This document shows, piece by piece, positions 7,595-29,628 of a stretch of 36,076 nucleotides of DNA. The translations under genes and the position numbers were made by a program. The stretch covers positions 1-36,076 of the forward strand of contig JAMBEQ010000103.1 in NCBI GenBank assembly GCA_024506175.1, given 5' to 3'. The stretch comes from Methylocystis sp. Its GTDB lineage: Bacteria; Pseudomonadota; Alphaproteobacteria; Rhizobiales; Beijerinckiaceae. The notes below the pieces were generated by a model. The model was not told the origin of the DNA and did no database searches. It saw only the letters and a program-made list of their open reading frames with translations. How positions within the stretch are numbered: the stretch's first letter is position 1; the number at the start of each line of letters is the position of its first letter.

Positions 7595-8650
7595 TCACAG
7601 CGCGCCGAAAGCCGGCTCGGGGTCGCCACGCCCTTCGAGAATCTTCAAGACAGCGGCCTGGTCGACATCCTCGAGCGAGGCGGGACGCCATTTCGGCGTT
7701 CTGTCCTTGTCGATCAGCGCCGCGCGTATGCCTTCGTAAAGATCGTGCCCCTCCAGCAAGCTGCACGCTGCGCGATATTCGTTGATGAGACACGTCTCCA
7801 AGCGGTCGGCCGTCATGGCGCGCTTCAAGAGCGCATGCGTGACTTTCAAGCTCGTGGGCGAGTTGCGGGAGATTTCGTCCGCCGCCTTGCGTCCGAAGGT
7901 CGAACCGCTCACGCGCAAACCGTCGATGATCCGCTCGACGCTGTCCGCGCTCATCGCGCGATTGAACTCGTCCTTGTGTTGCTGCAGCTCTCCCGGCAGT
8001 TGAGCGACCGCGAAAGCATCAAGTGCCGAGTGGACGTCATCGACAGTGGTCACAAAACTCAATCGCTCCGACAAATCTGGTATTTGCTGCGAATTAATTG
8101 TCACATCCGCCAGACCGACATGCACCGCGTCGGTTGCCCCAATTGTAACGCCCGAGAGCGCCATATAGACGCCGGCGCCGTTTTTTCGCGTCAAGAGCCA
8201 TGTGCCGCCGACATCCGGGGTGAAGCCGATCCGCGTTTCCGGCATGGCGAGCTGCGTGCGCTCGGTCACGACCCGGCGATTGCCATGCGCGGAAACGCCC
8301 ACGCCGCCCCCCATGACGACGCCGTCCATCAGCACGACATAAGGCTTGGGAAAGGCGGCGATGCGCGCGTTGAGCGCATATTCTTCACGCCAAAAAGTCT
8401 TATAGCCATCCCCCGCGCCGTTGCGGCATTCATAAAGCGTGCGAATGTCGCCGCCAGCGCAAAGCCCGCGCTCGCCTTCCCCCGTCACCAGCACGGCGAC
8501 GATATCGGGATTGGCGGCGAACTCCACGAGCGCTTGCGTGAAGCGTCGCACCATATCCAAGGTCAGGCTGTTCAGCGCCTTCGGCCGATTGAGGCGAATG
8601 CGCCCGAGCCGGCGTTCGCGCGAAACCAGGAGCTCCTCCTCCTGGCTCAT
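7595..8650 (-). CDS. 3-hydroxyisobutyryl-CoA hydrolase (enoyl-CoA hydratase/isomerase family)
   Basis: The 351-residue protein has the length of HIBCH, not of the 260-residue hydratases. Landmarks include RPKALNSLTLDMV, GLCAGGDIRTLYE, MDGVVMGGGVGVSAHGN and AMPETRIGFTPDVGG, the last two being characteristic of HIBCH. It hydrolyses 3-hydroxyisobutyryl-CoA to free 3-hydroxyisobutyrate in valine breakdown, and the product is the substrate of mmsB at 22133. The chosen ATG at 8650 has GAGAGG upstream. That ATG overlaps a TGA in the reading frame of the upstream dehydrogenase (ATGA at 8650-8647), which indicates that the two genes were once translationally coupled. A longer in-frame start at 9193 lies inside the upstream gene and is not credible. 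Confidence 0.88.
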   Translation of the reverse strand: MSQEEELLVSRERRLGRIRLNRPKALNSLTLDMVRRFTQALVEFAANPDIVAVLVTGEGERGLCAGGDIRTLYECRNGAGDGYKTFWREEYALNARIAAFPKPYVVLMDGVVMGGGVGVSAHGNRRVVTERTQLAMPETRIGFTPDVGGTWLLTRKNGAGVYMALSGVTIGATDAVHVGLADVTINSQQIPDLSERLSFVTTVDDVHSALDAFAVAQLPGELQQHKDEFNRAMSADSVERIIDGLRVSGSTFGRKAADEISRNSPTSLKVTHALLKRAMTADRLETCLINEYRAACSLLEGHDLYEGIRAALIDKDRTPKWRPASLEDVDQAAVLKILEGRGDPEPAFGAL

Positions 8651-8697
8651 TTCAGCCTCTCTTCGAGGAGCTCGCGGGCTACGATCAGGCGCATGAT

Positions 8698-9858
8698 TTA
8701 GTTCGTGCCCTCCAATATTCGGTGGACGCGCAGGTCTCGCACGATCTTCTCGAGCCCATAGTCGCAGAGATAGCCATAGCCGCCGAGCAACTGCAAAGCG
8801 TCGTCTGCGACGCTGAAGCCCACATCCGTGGCGACCCGTTTCGCCATGGCGCAAAGCCTCCCGGCATCCTCGGCCCCGGCGTCGAGCGCCGATGCGGCGC
8901 GCCACAAGAGCGCGCGCGCGGCTTCGAGCTCGGTCGCCATGTCTGCGAGACGAAACTGAAGCGCCTGGAATTTGTCGAGGCGCCGGCCAAAGGCTTTGCG
9001 CTCTTTCGTATAGGCAAGCGCCCCATCGAGCGCGGCCTGGGCGCCGCCGAGCGAGCAGGCGCCGATGTTCAGTCGGCCGCCGTCGAGGGCCGCCATCGCC
9101 ATGGCGAAGCCGCGCCCTTCCGGTCCCAGCATGCTTTCGGCCGGCGCTTTGCAATCGTCGAAAATCACGGCGCGCGTAGGCTGGGCGTTCCAACCCATCT
9201 TTCGCTCATTTTGCCCGAACTTCAATCCAGCGCTTCCGCCCTCGATCAGAAAGGCGGAAATCCCAGATGGTCCCTCCGCCCCCGTCCGCGCCATCACGAG
9301 GTAGAGATGCTCATCGCCGCCGGCGCCGGCGCCCGAGATGAATTGCTTCTCGCCTGTCAGAAAATACGAGTCGCCGCGTGTGACTGCCCTGGTGCGCAAC
9401 GCGGCCGCGTCGGAACCGCAGCCGGGCTCCGTCAGACAATAGCTTGTCAAAAACTGCATCCTGGCGAGCCGAGGCAGCCATCGCTCGCGCTGGGCGTCGG
9501 AGCCGAAAGCGTCGATCATCCAGGCGCACATGTTGTGGATGGAGAGATAAGCGGCGACCGTAGGGCAACCGGTCGCCAGCGCCTCGAAAATAAGAGCCGC
9601 GTCCAATCGAGAGAGGCCCGCGCCGCCGGATTCTTCGCGAACATATATGGCCGCGAGCCCGAGCGCCGCGGCGGCCCGCAGGGTTTCGACCGGAAAGAAT
9701 TTGTCCTTGTCCCAGTCGAGGGCGAAAGGCGTGATCTCATTTTTCGCAAAGGCTGTCGCCATCTCGCGAATGGCGAGCTGCTCGGCGGTCAGTCCCGTAG
9801 TCGAATACGTGGACAATGCAAGTTTCCGGGCTAGGCTGACGAGGCATTTGGCGCGCAT
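8698..9858 (-). CDS. Isobutyryl-CoA dehydrogenase-like acyl-CoA dehydrogenase with premature stop
   Basis: The 386-residue flavoprotein resembles ACAD8. It has YCLTEPGCGSDAAAL, KQFISGAG, ALDGGRLNIGACSLGGAQ, ERKAFGRRLDKFQ, LLGGYGYL and finally HRILEGTN, where E383 is the expected catalytic base. It would oxidise isobutyryl-CoA to methacrylyl-CoA. The frame stops with TAA at 8700-8698 directly after GTN, where relatives continue with Glu-Ile-Met-Arg. The next codons in the same frame read IMRLIVARELLEERLK and end at a TGA overlapping the ATG of the next gene. The original end was therefore almost certainly 8647. The missing tail is the C-terminal helix near FAD and the tetramer interface, so activity is doubtful. 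The start may be TTG at 9816 rather than ATG 9858, which overlaps the HMG-CoA lyase gene by 28 bases. Confidence 0.85.
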   Translation of the reverse strand: MRAKCLVSLARKLALSTYSTTGLTAEQLAIREMATAFAKNEITPFALDWDKDKFFPVETLRAAAALGLAAIYVREESGGAGLSRLDAALIFEALATGCPTVAAYLSIHNMCAWMIDAFGSDAQRERWLPRLARMQFLTSYCLTEPGCGSDAAALRTRAVTRGDSYFLTGEKQFISGAGAGGDEHLYLVMARTGAEGPSGISAFLIEGGSAGLKFGQNERKMGWNAQPTRAVIFDDCKAPAESMLGPEGRGFAMAMAALDGGRLNIGACSLGGAQAALDGALAYTKERKAFGRRLDKFQALQFRLADMATELEAARALLWRAASALDAGAEDAGRLCAMAKRVATDVGFSVADDALQLLGGYGYLCDYGLEKIVRDLRVHRILEGTN

Positions 9859-15176: not shown

Positions 15177-16346
15177 TCAGATGGTCTCCTGATACAATTC
15201 GCGGCCGATCAACATGCGGCGGATTTCGCTGGTGCCTGCGCCGATTTCGTAGAGCTTCGCGTCTCGAAGAAGGCGGCCGGCGGGATAATCGTTTGTGTAT
15301 CCATTGCCGCCGAGACATTGAATCGTCTCGAGCGCCATCCATGTCGCCCTTTCGGCGGCAAAAAGGATGGCGGCGGCCGCATCCTTGCGAGTGACCTTTC
15401 CGAGATCGCAGGCTTTGGCGACCGCGTAGACATGGGCTCTCGCTGCGCTCAGCGCCGTATACATGTCTGCGAGCTTGCCCTGCATGAGCTCGAATTCGCC
15501 GATGGGCTGGCCGAATTGCTTGCGCTCGTGAACATAGGGAAGGACAACGTCCATGCAGGCGCGCATGATGCCGAGCGGTCCGCCGGAAAGAACCGCTCGC
15601 TCATAATCCAGGCCGCTCATCAACACCGAGAGTCCTTGCTCCGGCTGCCCGAGCACATTTTCAGCCGGGACGACGCAGTCGTCGAAAGCAAGCTCACAGG
15701 TATTGGAGCCGCGCATGCCCAGCTTGTCGATCTTCGCCAAGGCTTGAAATCCCGTGAAGATCTTTTCGACGATGAAGGCGGTTACGCCCCGCGCACCCGC
15801 GGACGGGACAGTCTTCGCGTAAACCACCAGAACGTCCGCGTCCGGCCCATTCGTCACCCACATCTTGGCGCCGTTGAGAACATAAGCGTCGCCGAGTTTT
15901 TCCGCGCGTAGGCACATATTTGCGACATCCGACCCGGCGCCCGGCTCGGACATGGCGAGCGCGCCGACATGCTCGCCGGCGACGAGCTTCGGCAAATAAC
16001 GCCGCCTCTGCTCAGGCGACCCGTTGCGCTGAATTTGATTGACGCAAAGATTGGAGTGCGCGCCATAAGAGAGCCCGACCGACGCGGATGCGCGGCTGAT
16101 CTCCTCCATGACCACAACGTGTTCGAGATAGCCGAGGCCTGCGCCCCCATATTCCTCGGGGACGGTTACGCCAAGAACGCCGAGCGCGCCGAGCTTTCGC
16201 CAAAGCTGGCTCGGGAAGGCGTTTTCGGAGTCGATGCTCGCGGCGAGCGGCGCGATCTCGCGAGCGGCGAAGGTTTCCACCTGCTGTCGCAAAAGGTCGA
16301 TCGTCTCTCCGAGATCAAAATCAAGCACTCTGGGAAAGTGGCGCAT
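15177..16346 (-). CDS. Isovaleryl-CoA dehydrogenase
   Basis: The 389-residue FAD enzyme has [50 protein letters not shown] and [17 protein letters not shown]. The catalytic glutamate is at position 249 in helix G, as in isovaleryl-CoA dehydrogenases. Correspondingly the C-terminal motif is [10 protein letters not shown], lacking the glutamate used by most other acyl-CoA dehydrogenases. It oxidises isovaleryl-CoA to 3-methylcrotonyl-CoA. It is the first gene of the eight-gene minus-strand operon, with AAGGAG nine bases before the ATG and a candidate promoter at 16385-16414. Unlike the second dehydrogenase in this operon, its C-terminus is intact ([14 protein letters not shown]). Confidence 0.94.
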
Positions 16347-23019: not shown

Positions 23020-23871
23020 TTATCTCGTCGGCGTCAATGCGCCGCCAGGGCGCGAGAGCTCGAGCAATTCCTCGGTGATCTGTTCCTGACGCAGCCGGCG
23101 GTGGCGGGCCGTCAGCTCATCGAGAGTCTTGCGCACATTGCTTCGGGCCGCAGTCATAGCCTGCATGCGGGCGAGATTCTCGGAAGCGACAGAGAGCAGC
23201 GCCGCTTCGCAGAGTTCGGCAAAGACATATTCTTCCGTGAGAGTCGACAAGAGCAGCGGCGGCGCGAGATTGACGAGCGGCGGCGCGCGATCGCTCACTC
23301 GCGGAAATCGCGCGAGATCGAGCGGCACGATCGGCTTCGATATGACTCCGATTTCGGAAGGCGAGGCAGGAGCCATATGGACGAGCTCCACCTGAATCCT
23401 CTCGCCGGAAGAGACTTGGTCGTAGAGCGCATCGGCGATGCGTTCCGCGACGGCCGGCGCGTCGACGGCATGCGCCGCCATCGGCGTCGACCAGGCGACA
23501 GTCAGACCGCGTTCGGTCGCGCTTGTCTTTCCCTTCTGCCCGACCACATAGAGCGATGCTTGCGGCGACGAGAGCGCGGCGGCGCGCAGCACACGATCGT
23601 CGAAGCCGCCGACAAATCCCTGCTCCGAGCAAAAAGCCAGAACAATTCGCTTCGAGGCGGAGGGCGGCGCCGTCGGCTCGCTGGGCGCGAGAGACAACGC
23701 GATTTGAATCGCTTCGCCAACCGCGCTTGCATAGGATCGCACGCCGTCGAGACTTTTCTGCGCGTCATGACTGCGGGCCGCCGCAAGGCCGCGCATGGCG
23801 GTAAAGACTGTTTCGAGCTGGCGCGTGGCGGCGATGCGCTTGCGAATGTCGGAGAGATGTTCGCTGCTCAC
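23020..23871 (-). CDS. atpG: N-type ATPase gamma subunit
   Basis: The 283-residue protein has the gamma pattern. The N-terminal helix is [30 protein letters not shown]. The centre resembles [16 protein letters not shown] (housekeeping gamma: SDRGLCGGFN). The C-terminal helix contains [30 protein letters not shown]. It is the central rotor stalk between the alpha3beta3 head and the c-ring. It starts with GTG, and the GTGA overlaps the alpha stop (23871-23868). It is the last gene of the operon, as in the known order atpDCQRBEFAG. The sequence diverges strongly from housekeeping gamma subunits, as expected for this lineage. Confidence 0.9.
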
Positions 23872-25439
23872 GCGGGCGCCTCGGAGCCTGCTTCGCCGAT
23901 CTCCGCCGCGAGAGCTCTCGTCACGTCTATCAAATTGCCGCGGCTTGTTTCGTCCAGCGCCGCCCTCGACTGACAGGCGGCGACCGCCATCGGCGCGTCT
24001 CTGTCAAGACGATCGGGGAGGCGCTCGCGCAACAATCCGATCGCCTCGGTCGCCAAACCATCCAGAACCCCGGCTTCGAGCGCCAGAAGAAGCGCGACCT
24101 GGTCGACCTGCCGCAGCAGCGCAAATGTTGGTTGCGTCAACAAAGCGCGTATTTTCTGACCACGCGTGATTTGGCCATGAACATGGGTTGTCGAAACCCC
24201 GCCGAAACGGCTGAAAAGCTCCAGTTCGAGAAACTGGGAATATTGCAGTCGCAATCGCGCGGAAGCCTGTTTGAGCGCCGGGGGCTGCGCCTTGCCGCCC
24301 ACGCGGCTGACGCTGAGCCCGACATCCACGGCCGGCCGCTGGTTGGCCGCGAAGAGGCGCGAGTCGAAAACGATCTGCCCGTCGGTGATCGAAATAAGGT
24401 TCGTCGGGATATAGGCCGAGAGATTGCCCGCCTCCGTCTCGGCAATGGGCAAGGCGGTCAATGAGCCGCCTCCCTTCGACTGGGAAAGCTTCGCCGCGCG
24501 TTCGAGCAACCTTGCATGCAGATAGAAGACGTCGCCGGGATAGGCTTCGCGTCCCGGCGGCTCGCGCGTGAGCAGCGCAAGCTCTCGATGGGTGGCCGCA
24601 TGTTTGGTCAGATCGTCTACAACGACAAGCGCATGGCCGCCACGATCGCGAAAATACTCCGCCATGGTGAAGCTCGCGAACGGCGCGATCCATTGCAGCC
24701 CCGGCGCGCTGGAGGCGGCCGCCACGACGAATATCGTCCGCTCGGGCGCGCCGCGCGTGCGCACCGCCTCGATCGCGCGCTCGACGGCCGACGCTCTTTG
24801 TCCGATCGCGACATAGATGCAGATCACATCGGACTGCTTTTGATTGAGGATCGCGTCTATGGCGACGGAGGTTTTTCCCGTCGCGCGATCTCCGAGGATA
24901 AGCTCGCGTTGCCCTCGGCCGATCGAGAACATCGAATCGACGACCAGCAGGCCCGTCTCGAGCGGCTCCGTCACCAGATCACGGTCAAATATGCCCGGCG
25001 CGTCCCGCTCCACGGGGTGAAAGCTTTCGGCGTCGACTGGACCCGCATCGTCGAGCGGCCGCCCGAGCGGATCGATGACGCGGCCGAGCAGGCCCGGCCC
25101 AACCGGCGCGCTTGCCGTTTCGCCGAGGCCCGCCACCTTGTCGCCGGCTTCGATGTTCTCCGCGTCGTCCAGCAGCACCACGCCGATCCGGTCGACATCG
25201 AGGGTCGTCGCAAATCCGAGGCTGCCGTTTTCGAAACGGAGCAGCTCGTTGAGCCGGGTCTGCGGCAGACCGGAAACCAGGGCGACCCCGTCGGCAAAAC
25301 TTTCCACGCGACCAATCTGCGCAACGGCGGGCCCGAGCTGAACCTGTGAGACACGCTTTCGCCGCTCGTCCAGCCAAGCCCCCCAGGGATCGACCCCGTT
25401 GGACGCTGGCGACGGAGGGCCCGGCCTATTCTGCGTCAT
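23868..25439 (-). CDS. atpA: N-type ATPase alpha subunit
   Basis: The 523-residue protein has the P-loop GDRATGKT at 183-190, where housekeeping alpha has [35 protein letters not shown] and [18 protein letters not shown] complete the alpha signature. It is the non-catalytic nucleotide-binding head subunit. The N-terminus ([17 protein letters not shown]) differs from the helix that in ordinary alpha subunits docks delta, which is relevant because no delta gene exists here. The ATG at 25439 overlaps the end of the b gene by 14 bases. A longer frame to 25502 is antisense-like and unnecessary. Confidence 0.93.
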
Positions 25440-26166
25440 GACCGTCGAGCGCCGCCGCCATTCTTGCGAGATCGGCGCGCAAGCTGTTGTGGACGGTGGC
25501 ATGCCGGTTCTCGAGCTCGAGCCCGGCGATGACCGACGGGTCTATCTCGACCGAGAAGGCGACCGGTCGCCCGAAGCCGATTTCGAGCGCATGGCGGCAA
25601 TCGGCCTCCTCCTGGGCCGTCAGCGGTCTCGGCGCCTTGAGGCGCGCATCGCCATCCTGCTCGAAATCCGCCTTCGCTTCGGGCGGAAGGGCGGCGGCCG
25701 CCGCGGCCAGGCCGGCGATAAATCCGGAAACGAGGCTCGATTGCGGGAAGCGGTCGACCAACCGTTTTGTCATGCCGACGGCAAGGGCGCTCGCATGTTT
25801 CATCTGTGCTTCAAGGCCGAGCGTCGCCTGGCGCGCGAGTTCCGCTCGCGCCTCTTCGCGCATTCGCTCGGCCTCGGCGCGCGCGGTGGCGAGCAGCGCC
25901 TCCCTTTGGGCCTCCGCTTCCTGCTTCGCCGCGTTCAGGGCGGCTGATCGGCGCTCGGCCATCTCGGCGAGGGTGGCTTGTTCGTTTTCGCGCGCCGCCT
26001 GAGCGTCGGATTTCGCCTGCTCGGCCTCATCGAGAAGACGACCCGCCGCCGCTTTGCGTTCGGCGATGACATTGGCGACGGGTTTGAACAGGAAATAGGC
26101 CAACAGCCAAATGAGCACCACCGCATTGATGGTTTGCAGTGAAAGCGTCCACCAATCGATGCGCAT
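25426..26166 (-). CDS. atpF: N-type ATPase b subunit with delta-like C-terminal domain
   Basis: The 246-residue protein is about 90 residues longer than ordinary b subunits. Residues 1-30 hold the membrane anchor ([23 protein letters not shown]). Residues 33-130 form a long Ala/Glu/Arg-rich coiled coil. Residues 178-240 read like the C-terminal domain of F-ATPase delta: [19 protein letters not shown], then [20 protein letters not shown] and [10 protein letters not shown]. In E. coli delta the matching stretch is IDKSVMAGVIIR...DGSVRGRLERL. The protein therefore appears to combine the peripheral stalk with the head-capping function, explaining the absence of a separate atpH gene. The ATG follows the c gene by 6 bases. 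Confidence 0.9.
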
Positions 26167-26172
26167 GCGCGC

Positions 26173-26418
26173 CTATCTCACGAAAGGATTTGCGAAAAGA
26201 AGCAGCAAGGCGACGACGAGGCAGTAGATCGCCATCGTCTCGATCATAGCCAGGCCGACGAAAAGCGTGCGTGACAGAACGCCGGCAGCCTCGGGCTGCC
26301 GCGCGATCGCCTCCATGGCGGCGGCGACCGCCTTGCCTTCGGCAAGCGCGGGTCCGATGGCCCCGAAGGAGACGGCGATCGCGGCGGCGATGACGCTTAT
26401 GTTCTCAATCTGATCCAT
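26173..26418 (-). CDS. atpE: N-type ATPase c subunit (rotor ring)
   Basis: The 81-residue hairpin has two helices joined by the ARQPE loop. Helix 1 contains [11 protein letters not shown] with E27. Helix 2 contains [20 protein letters not shown] with E60, T61 and Y65, ending in FANPFV. Aligned by eye to the sodium-binding c subunit of Ilyobacter, E27 takes the place of Gln32, and E60, T61, Y65 match Glu65, Ser66, Tyr70. The site thus has two carboxylates. Whether it binds Na+ or H+ cannot be decided from this alone. The ATG at 26418 overlaps the end of the a-subunit gene by 14 bases. A 10-residue longer start at 26448 would lie inside that gene. Confidence 0.95.
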
Positions 26419-27112
26419 GTCGAGCTCCGTCAGAGCCTGGCGCGGCATCCTTCTCGGGGGCGACGGCGGCCCCCGTAAATACCATTGCGAGTGTTGCGAA
26501 AATATAAGCCTGCACCGCTCCAGTCAGCAGATCGAGCGCCATCAGCGGGATCGGCACGAGAAGGCCGGCGAGCGACAGAACGATGCCGACGACGAAGACG
26601 CCGCTCATCACATTGCCGAACAAGCGCACGAACAAGGAAAAGGTGCGCGTGATCTGCTCCACGAGATTGAGCGGAACCATGAAGAGGCTCGGCTCCGCGA
26701 AGGTCTTCAGATAGCCCCAGAGTCCTTGCGTCCTCAGCCCGTGATAGATGGTCGCGACAAAAACCACGAGGGCGAGCGCCGCATCCGTCTCCAAACGCGC
26801 CGTCGGCGGCTCAACGCCGGGAATGACGGCGGACCAATTCGCGAGAAGGATGAAGAGGAAGAGAGTCCCGAACAGCGCGCGGTAGGGGCGGGGGTCGACC
26901 CGCATCGTGTCGCGCACCTGGGAATCGAGCGTGTCGACGATCAGTTCGAGGAAGGCTTGAACAATGCCTGGGCGCAATGCCAGTCGGCGCGTCGCCAGCG
27001 CGCTCCCGACGATCAGGAAGCCCATCAGCGCCCACGTGGTCGCCACCGGCTTGGCTATGGGAACGGGGCCGATATGGAAAGCGATCTCGAGCTCGAGCGG
27101 CGAGCTGATCAT
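26405..27112 (-). CDS. atpB: N-type ATPase a subunit
   Basis: The 235-residue membrane protein has about five to six hydrophobic segments. The stator motif is [13 protein letters not shown], with the essential arginine at R163 facing the c-ring. [21 protein letters not shown] and [16 protein letters not shown] are further a-subunit landmarks. It forms the ion half-channels with the c-ring. The ATG at 27112 overlaps the atpR stop in ATGA (27112-27109). A longer in-frame start at 27301 runs through atpR and is rejected. Confidence 0.94.
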
Positions 27113-27393
27113 CGCCCGTCTCCGATGCGTTTGATAAGCAGGCGGCGCGCCGCCAAAAGGCCCCCCGCGCCCGAAAGGAGCGCGAGCGCCCCAAGCTTGA
27201 CGAGCGCAAACAGGGTGAGCGCCAGTACCGTGACCCTCGCCGCAAACAGCAGCAGGGCGCGCGCCGCAGCGCGGCGGTCGATCAGCAAAACATTCCACCA
27301 AAGGGCCGAAAAATAACCATAGCCGACGATGGCGCCGATGACGGCGCCGGCGCAGAGCTGGAGCGCCGGCGAGACGGCAAGGGATACGGTCAT
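27109..27393 (-). CDS. atpR: N-type ATPase subunit AtpR
   Basis: The 94-residue membrane protein has about three hydrophobic segments: residues 10-30, 44-66 and 68-82. The central one carries an arginine (AARVTVLALTLFALVK). AtpR is found only in N-type ATPase operons between atpQ and atpB. Its membrane arginine has been proposed to interact with the extra c-subunit carboxylate during ring assembly. The start at 27393 is chosen because its ATG overlaps the atpQ stop as ATGA. A start at 27423 would add 10 residues inside atpQ. Confidence 0.85.
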   Translation of the reverse strand: MTVSLAVSPALQLCAGAVIGAIVGYGYFSALWWNVLLIDRRAAARALLLFAARVTVLALTLFALVKLGALALLSGAGGLLAARRLLIKRIGDGR

Positions 27394-27680
27394 TGGCGGG
27401 ACATCCATTTCCAGGCGAGCCATAGTCCGAGCGCCGCTCCCAGCATGACGAGCGGCGCGGAGAAGAAGACGCCGGAATGCATCGTCTTGTCCAGCCAGCG
27501 GCCGACGAAAAGCCCGAGCAGGGTGGGCGTGACGATGGTCCAGCCCAGGACGCCGATCTGCCCGAGCCGGCGCCCGAGAGAGGGTTCCGGGTCGCGGCGC
27601 CCCTCGCGCTCGCGGTCTGCGGCCGTGCGGGCGGCGTCAGCCAGCCGTTCGGTCGAGTGAGAGCGGGGCGGCTCGCTCAT
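27390..27680 (-). CDS. atpQ: N-type ATPase subunit AtpQ (AtpI-like)
   Basis: The 96-residue protein has a charged N-terminus (residues 1-40) and two hydrophobic segments (about 42-60 and 72-92) with LGLFVGRWLDKTMHSG between them. This AtpI/AtpQ-like pattern is thought to help c-ring assembly or Mg2+ handling. Its ATG overlaps the epsilon stop as ATGA (27680-27677). Its position between epsilon and AtpR matches the standard N-type operon. The frame is open further upstream to 28205, but that part overlaps epsilon and is not credible. Confidence 0.87.
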   Translation of the reverse strand: MSEPPRSHSTERLADAARTAADREREGRRDPEPSLGRRLGQIGVLGWTIVTPTLLGLFVGRWLDKTMHSGVFFSAPLVMLGAALGLWLAWKWMSRQ

Positions 27681-28125
27681 TGGCCGTCCTCCTGGCCATC
27701 CGCCAGGATCGACTCCGACAAGCCGGCCGGCCGCAAATAGCGGATAAGCTGGCGCACGGCGCGCGCATGCAGCCGAGCCTGCTCCACGCGAGCGTGGCTT
27801 TCCATCTTTGCCTGAGCGGCGGCGGCGGCGCGGACGTCGGCTTCCAGCTTTTCCAGCTGGTCTCCGAGCACGCCGTGCCGGCACGCGACGCGCACCTGCA
27901 ACCCATCCTTGACGCTCATGACGCCACCACGCACGGCGCAGTAATGCTCTTTCTCGTCGCGCCGCCAGCGAAGAACGCAGGCGGAAAGCGCGGTGACAAA
28001 ATCCGCGTGGCCCGGCAGAACGCCGAAGCCGCCGCTCGCGTCCTCTCCACGCAGCGATGCGACGTCGGGCTCGTCGACAAGCAGCCTTGTCGGCGTCGAG
28101 ATGACGAGCCTGAGGCTTTTGGCCA

Positions 28126-28126
<1 letters not shown>
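27677..28126 (-). CDS. atpC: N-type ATPase epsilon subunit
   Basis: The 149-residue protein has the epsilon beta-sandwich landmarks RLVISTPTRLLVDEPDVASLRGEDASG (about 6-32), FGVLPGHADFVTAL and YCAVRGGVMSV. A C-terminal helical region rich in Ala, Arg and Glu follows (about 90-130). It couples gamma to the c-ring and in housekeeping enzymes its C-terminal helices can inhibit ATP hydrolysis. The ATG at 28126 shares its A with the TGA of the beta gene (TGATG). Confidence 0.9.

Positions 28127-29628
<1,502 letters not shown>

Follow-up and report, generated by a model that had tools for sequence, protein, structure and literature searches.

A premature stop codon private to one Methylocystis-like lineage shortens its isobutyryl-CoA dehydrogenase gene: recent nonsense mutation or base error

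The isobutyryl-CoA dehydrogenase (IBD) gene in a 36,076-nucleotide stretch of Methylocystis sp. DNA (hereafter the window) ends at an in-frame TAA (8700-8698, minus strand), which raises the question of whether the gene has just been broken or only appears so in the assembly. A reading of the sequence alone had placed this stop directly after the motif LEGTN. The minus strand (...GAG GGC ACG AAC TAA ATC ATG CGC...) and its translation bear this out; the body is free of stops up to ...RVHRILEGTN. The same reading described a lost tail that can still be read and an undamaged overlap with the next gene, and both are present. After the TAA the frame continues for 16 codons, IMRLIVARELLEERLK, to a TGA (8649-8647, minus strand), and the A preceding that TGA makes the ATGA (8650-8647) with which the hydrolase gene starts. 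The stop thus removes 17 residues (the one at the TAA and the 16 of the tail). The tail is readable beyond chance, because the match to the Pfam Acyl-CoA_dh_1 profile crosses the TAA without a break and covers the whole profile (positions 1-150 of 150; 8665-9117, flagged '1 TAA'), and the protein of an intact relative aligns across it over residues 3-389 of 391. Translation likely begins at a TTG, although the open frame extends back to an ATG at 9858. The features are collected in Table 1.

Table 1. Positions of the IBD gene, its stop and related features in the window
Feature	Positions	Strand	Description and basis
IBD body	8701..9816	-	372 codons, likely TTG start (9816) to LEGTN; PF02771, PF02770, PF00441; best PDB match human ACAD8
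Premature TAA, Glu codon in relatives	8698..8700	-	Sequence; Glu in 109/109 other loci
Readable tail, 16 codons IMRLIVARELLEERLK	8650..8697	-	Continues acyl-CoA dehydrogenase profile
Downstream TGA, end point in closest relatives	8647..8649	-	Overlaps hydrolase start; overlap common to L006, L007, L008
Candidate mini-ORF for re-initiation, 15 codons MRLIVARELLEERLK	8647..8694	-	In-frame ATG three bases past TAA
3-hydroxyisobutyryl-CoA hydrolase, next gene downstream of IBD	7595..8650	-	NF004127, 401.9 bits, cut-off 274
Isovaleryl-CoA dehydrogenase (IVD) paralogue, same cluster	15177..16346	-	35% identity to IBD body; best PDB matches isovaleryl-CoA dehydrogenases 4o5m, 4kto

By its three acyl-CoA dehydrogenase domains and its nearest characterised relative, the body is assigned to the isobutyryl-CoA dehydrogenases of the ACAD family. 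The best match among solved structures was human ACAD8 isobutyryl-CoA dehydrogenase (PDB 1rx0; E = 1.4e-124, query residues 15-382). No NCBIfam model was passed at its cut-off (the best score was 330.5 bits against 640, for acryloyl-CoA reductase), and the list of models shows none for IBD. The C-terminal segment of the truncated protein is incomplete and lacks the acidic residue that contacts FAD: the TAA stands at that codon, and the profile is completed only through the stop. Nearby genes score above their own NCBIfam cut-offs as HMG-CoA lyase, methylmalonate-semialdehyde dehydrogenase, 3-hydroxyisobutyrate dehydrogenase and acetyl-CoA C-acyltransferase. Judged from its translations, and for IVD from the PDB matches, the cluster reads as a leucine/valine/tyrosine catabolic island on both strands. 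Beside it (23020-29607, minus strand) the translations suggest a second ATP synthase operon of an unusual kind. A literature search found no paper on the IBD stop or on leucine degradation in Methylocystis.

The sequence-only reading proposed that one change of GAA to TAA explains the stop, and the TAA does differ by a single base from the Glu codon of the closest relatives. The codon following LEGTN (or its variant) was read at 110 loci and is TAA in the window, GAG in 69 and GAA in 40; the 109 other loci represent 108 distinct ones (L006 and L047 are the same contig), with the genome's own paralogues (L002-L005) and neighbourhood pieces (L035-L046) excluded. The TAA recurs in none of these other loci. 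The nearest named relative, Methylocystis sp. Sn-Cys (L047), is 87% identical, and the three closest relatives (L006, L007 and L008; 85-87%) have GAA together with the same ATGA overlap. An order-wide search with the intact relative's protein gave a match at 1e-120 in 167 of 397 genomes. Among the matches listed, 11 rows carried a stop flag, namely the window, nine ordinary ends 13-14 residues past the motif (in one of which, G039, Asp replaces Glu) and one stop elsewhere in the gene (G153). Neither the 109 loci read nor the ten further stop-flagged rows among the order-wide matches listed have another stop at the site, and the residue is acidic (Glu or Asp) in every relative read. The stop is private to the window lineage, and orthologues elsewhere are intact (one TAA against 109 Glu codons). 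Tails of relatives run for 13 to 29 residues after the Asn, and none of the loci read ends earlier than 13. Compared with that of L006, the window tail is identical over IMRLIVAR; the four differences fall in the last eight residues, a stretch that varies among relatives. The stop in G153 (C92:1-1400), a draft genome in the same order, is a lone internal TAA at a different place in the IBD body.

The age of the stop was approached through selection on the codons before it. Between the window and the relative G030, the IBD body has a dN of 0.088 and a dS of 0.83 (ratio 0.106), and the ratio between G030 and a further relative, G002, is 0.107. On the window branch, where changes were counted with three outgroups, amino-acid changes in the body number 6 and silent ones 21, and only one of the 18 genes compared has a lower ratio. 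The corresponding counts on that branch are 41 and 25 for the carboxylase alpha subunit and 16 and 12 for the thiolase. The body is thus under strong purifying selection. Relaxed constraint was looked for in these ratios and branch counts and none was seen; a genuine stop must therefore be very recent. In comparison with G030 or G002, the frames of the other 17 cluster genes are free of internal stops. By their coordinates relative to the open frames, the stop flags in these genes sit upstream of the gene starts or at natural gene ends, and the window's remaining genes lie mostly outside the stretches of the relatives that were compared.

To a genuine, recent nonsense mutation in the only IBD gene found in the genome we assign an even chance. 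Somewhat short of even are the chances that the TAA is a base error, or a minority-strain base, in a draft assembly and that the organism's real IBD gene is intact. The genome is a draft of 266 contigs (3.37 Mb, 97.1% complete), and an intact tail and overlap behind an unrelaxed body are what an error gives. The assembly holds other single-base oddities (a short tRNA-Lys and, among 43 response-regulator matches, one that is split), and G153 shows that a lone internal TAA occurs elsewhere in IBD in another draft of the order. Against this, no internal stop was present in the 39 ABC-transporter and 43 response-regulator matches of the genome, and most random errors would be missense, whereas the IBD body has no excess of amino-acid changes. 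A scan for lesions can be read both ways. In its stricter form it gave 10 lesions with G002 as reference and 13 with G030, more than the 2 and 4 in two controls. From their positions, those other than the IBD stop were taken to be located before gene starts, at natural ends or in wrong or antisense frames, a judgement that leaves the excess over the controls without a formal explanation. In the comparison with G002 (45 genes, 11,883 codons) no lesion other than the IBD stop was convincing by its position, and a high error rate is therefore improbable. In an earlier version of the scan, which was rejected, antisense and upstream frames dominated the output (16 and 11 lesions, against 5 and 10 in the controls).

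The sequence-only reading had offered three accounts of the stop: a very recent change, an assembly error or read-through. The first two stand, the unrelaxed body making the change very recent if it is genuine; read-through or recoding of the TAA, with full-length IBD still made, we consider highly unlikely. The frame and tail are kept and the profile match runs to its end, as read-through would have it, but the stop is unconserved: the 109 other loci have none at the site, and the stop-flagged rows among the order-wide matches listed are the window itself, nine ordinary ends and one stop elsewhere. TAA also ends five other genes of the cluster. ARAGORN called no tRNA with a UUA anticodon among 37 tRNA matches of the genome, a set that is short of the 47 of G002 and the 43 of G030 and includes one tRNA without a clear anticodon. 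Least credible of all, and exceedingly improbable in our estimation, is a naturally split enzyme, in which ribosomes would stop at the TAA and restart at the ATG three bases on, the 15-residue last-helix peptide would bind the 372-residue body in trans, and the ATGA would keep the hydrolase coupled. No new mechanism is called for; in all likelihood the stop is either a very recent mutation of an ordinary kind or a sequencing error.

The tRNA without a clear ARAGORN anticodon, which has a six-base anticodon loop, was considered as a suppressor and rejected; it is a tRNA-Lys(CTT) one base short and not a UUA tRNA. This gene (L155 1501-1575; C56:6369-6443) lacks one anticodon-loop base that 15 loci in other genomes of the genus possess; its flanks match relatives. 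A second, diverged tRNA-Lys(CTT) copy (L152; C257:17433-17508) has G in place of U33, the usual base at that position. Base errors, decay after duplication and foreign DNA are possible explanations of these oddities. A response regulator near C112:3981-4315 (L249; C112:2500-6000) has its two halves in different frames, through an error or as a pseudogene.

The consequence of the stop for the enzyme depends on the residues removed. The first of them aligns with E374 of the window's own IVD and with E411 of human IVD, the latter equivalence being counted along the alignment of query residues 14-383 to chain residues 47-420 of 8sgr. According to a study of the human enzyme (PMC12369846), E411 hydrogen-bonds FAD, T409 and E411 come from bordering monomers, and the E411K variant has no more than 20% activity and reduced FAD binding. 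By analogy with this paralogue, the truncated IBD is probably inactive because the lost Glu aligns with an FAD ligand. It is very unlikely that the 372-residue protein works and that the stop is a harmless shortening. The variable length of the relatives' tails (13 to 29 residues) would allow some shortening, but no relative among the loci read ends as early as the window IBD. In all of these loci the residue lost first is acidic, and in human IVD it is a ligand of FAD. AlphaFold monomers, predicted from a shallow alignment, gave a mean pLDDT of 86.0 for the truncated protein and 71.2 for that of an intact relative. The truncated model is confident, as a harmless shortening would have it, and shows no sign that the fold is harmed, yet such monomers are of no use for or against the effect of the truncation. 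A further point in favour of a working protein is that the Glu of LEGTN, the catalytic base of the acyl-CoA dehydrogenase family, is retained.

Whether another enzyme could take over was addressed with an acyl-CoA dehydrogenase family search, a check that the sequence-only reading had suggested; no second IBD was found in the 97.1% complete draft. The genome has four acyl-CoA dehydrogenase C-terminal domains, those of the window IBD, IVD, a protein on contig C120 and a larger protein on C95. The best solved match of the C120 protein is 6es9, presumably a methylsuccinyl-CoA dehydrogenase, and its third match, 8ciw, bears that name. The C95 protein we label FadE-like. A fifth acyl-CoA dehydrogenase is a contig-edge fragment on C101 with only the N-terminal and middle domains. 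None of these (IVD, the C120 and C95 proteins and the C101 fragment) looks like a second IBD. Through overlapping specificity, the IVD of the same cluster is a possible partial substitute; dual valine/isoleucine activity has been proposed for two Micrococcus luteus dehydrogenases (PMC5857589).

The gene itself can be dispensed with in the genus. An IBD match at E<=1e-60 is present in 32 of 39 genus genomes, the window's own included (28 of the 30 of good quality), and absent from 7 (2 of the 30). In three genomes without a match (L157, L158 and L159) the 16-18 kb read contain a relative of the hydrolase but none of the other cluster genes. In G016 (L160, C70:6000-19000), a draft of about 140 contigs, both the hydrolase frame and, towards its 3' end, the IBD frame are broken, which may be decay or draft errors.

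Translation of the hydrolase could suffer from the early stop upstream. GAGAGG lies five bases before the hydrolase ATG, and re-initiation could use an in-frame ATG three bases past the TAA, so hydrolase translation may drop but need not. A search of 8400-8900 turned up nothing resembling a promoter or terminator. A coupling hairpin at the hydrolase start was seen in the window (z -1.69, with 9 of 200 shuffles at least as good) but was dropped, since the folds predicted for eight relatives differ around this start, although an outer stem recurs in the three closest.

Should the stop be a genuine mutation, we propose that it hit, very recently, the sole IBD gene found, in a Methylocystis-like bacterium whose leucine/valine/tyrosine cluster is otherwise intact. 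The protein would end at LEGTN, losing the FAD-contacting residue and the rest of its last helix, and would bind FAD poorly and so be inactive or nearly so. Isobutyryl-CoA oxidation would stop or rely on a weak side activity of the neighbouring IVD, and the downstream hydrolase would still be translated, either by re-initiation or from its own start codon. The loss of a catabolic step that can be spared is ordinary, and here it would be seen at an early stage. It would show how gene loss begins in a pathway of amino-acid breakdown for which a methane-eater may have little use, and it would be a case in which annotation could call the valine pathway complete despite one shortened enzyme. If the stop is an error, it is a caution for reading draft assemblies. 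Neither outcome alters general understanding, the event being of an ordinary kind.

Three known systems place the gene. Like human ACAD8 (1rx0), its best solved match, it belongs by sequence with isobutyryl-CoA dehydrogenases, and it sits beside the valine-pathway hydrolase in a cluster with the MmsA and 3-hydroxyisobutyrate dehydrogenase genes, both on the opposite strand; it differs in ending at LEGTN, where its relatives go on for 13-29 residues. With the isovaleric acidemia variant E411K of human IVD (PMC12369846) it shares the aligned residue affected, but the human change is a missense in a paralogous enzyme, whereas in the window IBD that residue and all after it are absent. The third comparison is with bacterial pseudogenes that carry a single nonsense mutation, which likewise have one in-frame stop in a gene otherwise intact and constrained, with intact orthologues in relatives. 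Nothing tested separates the window IBD from these; if real, it is merely unusually young.
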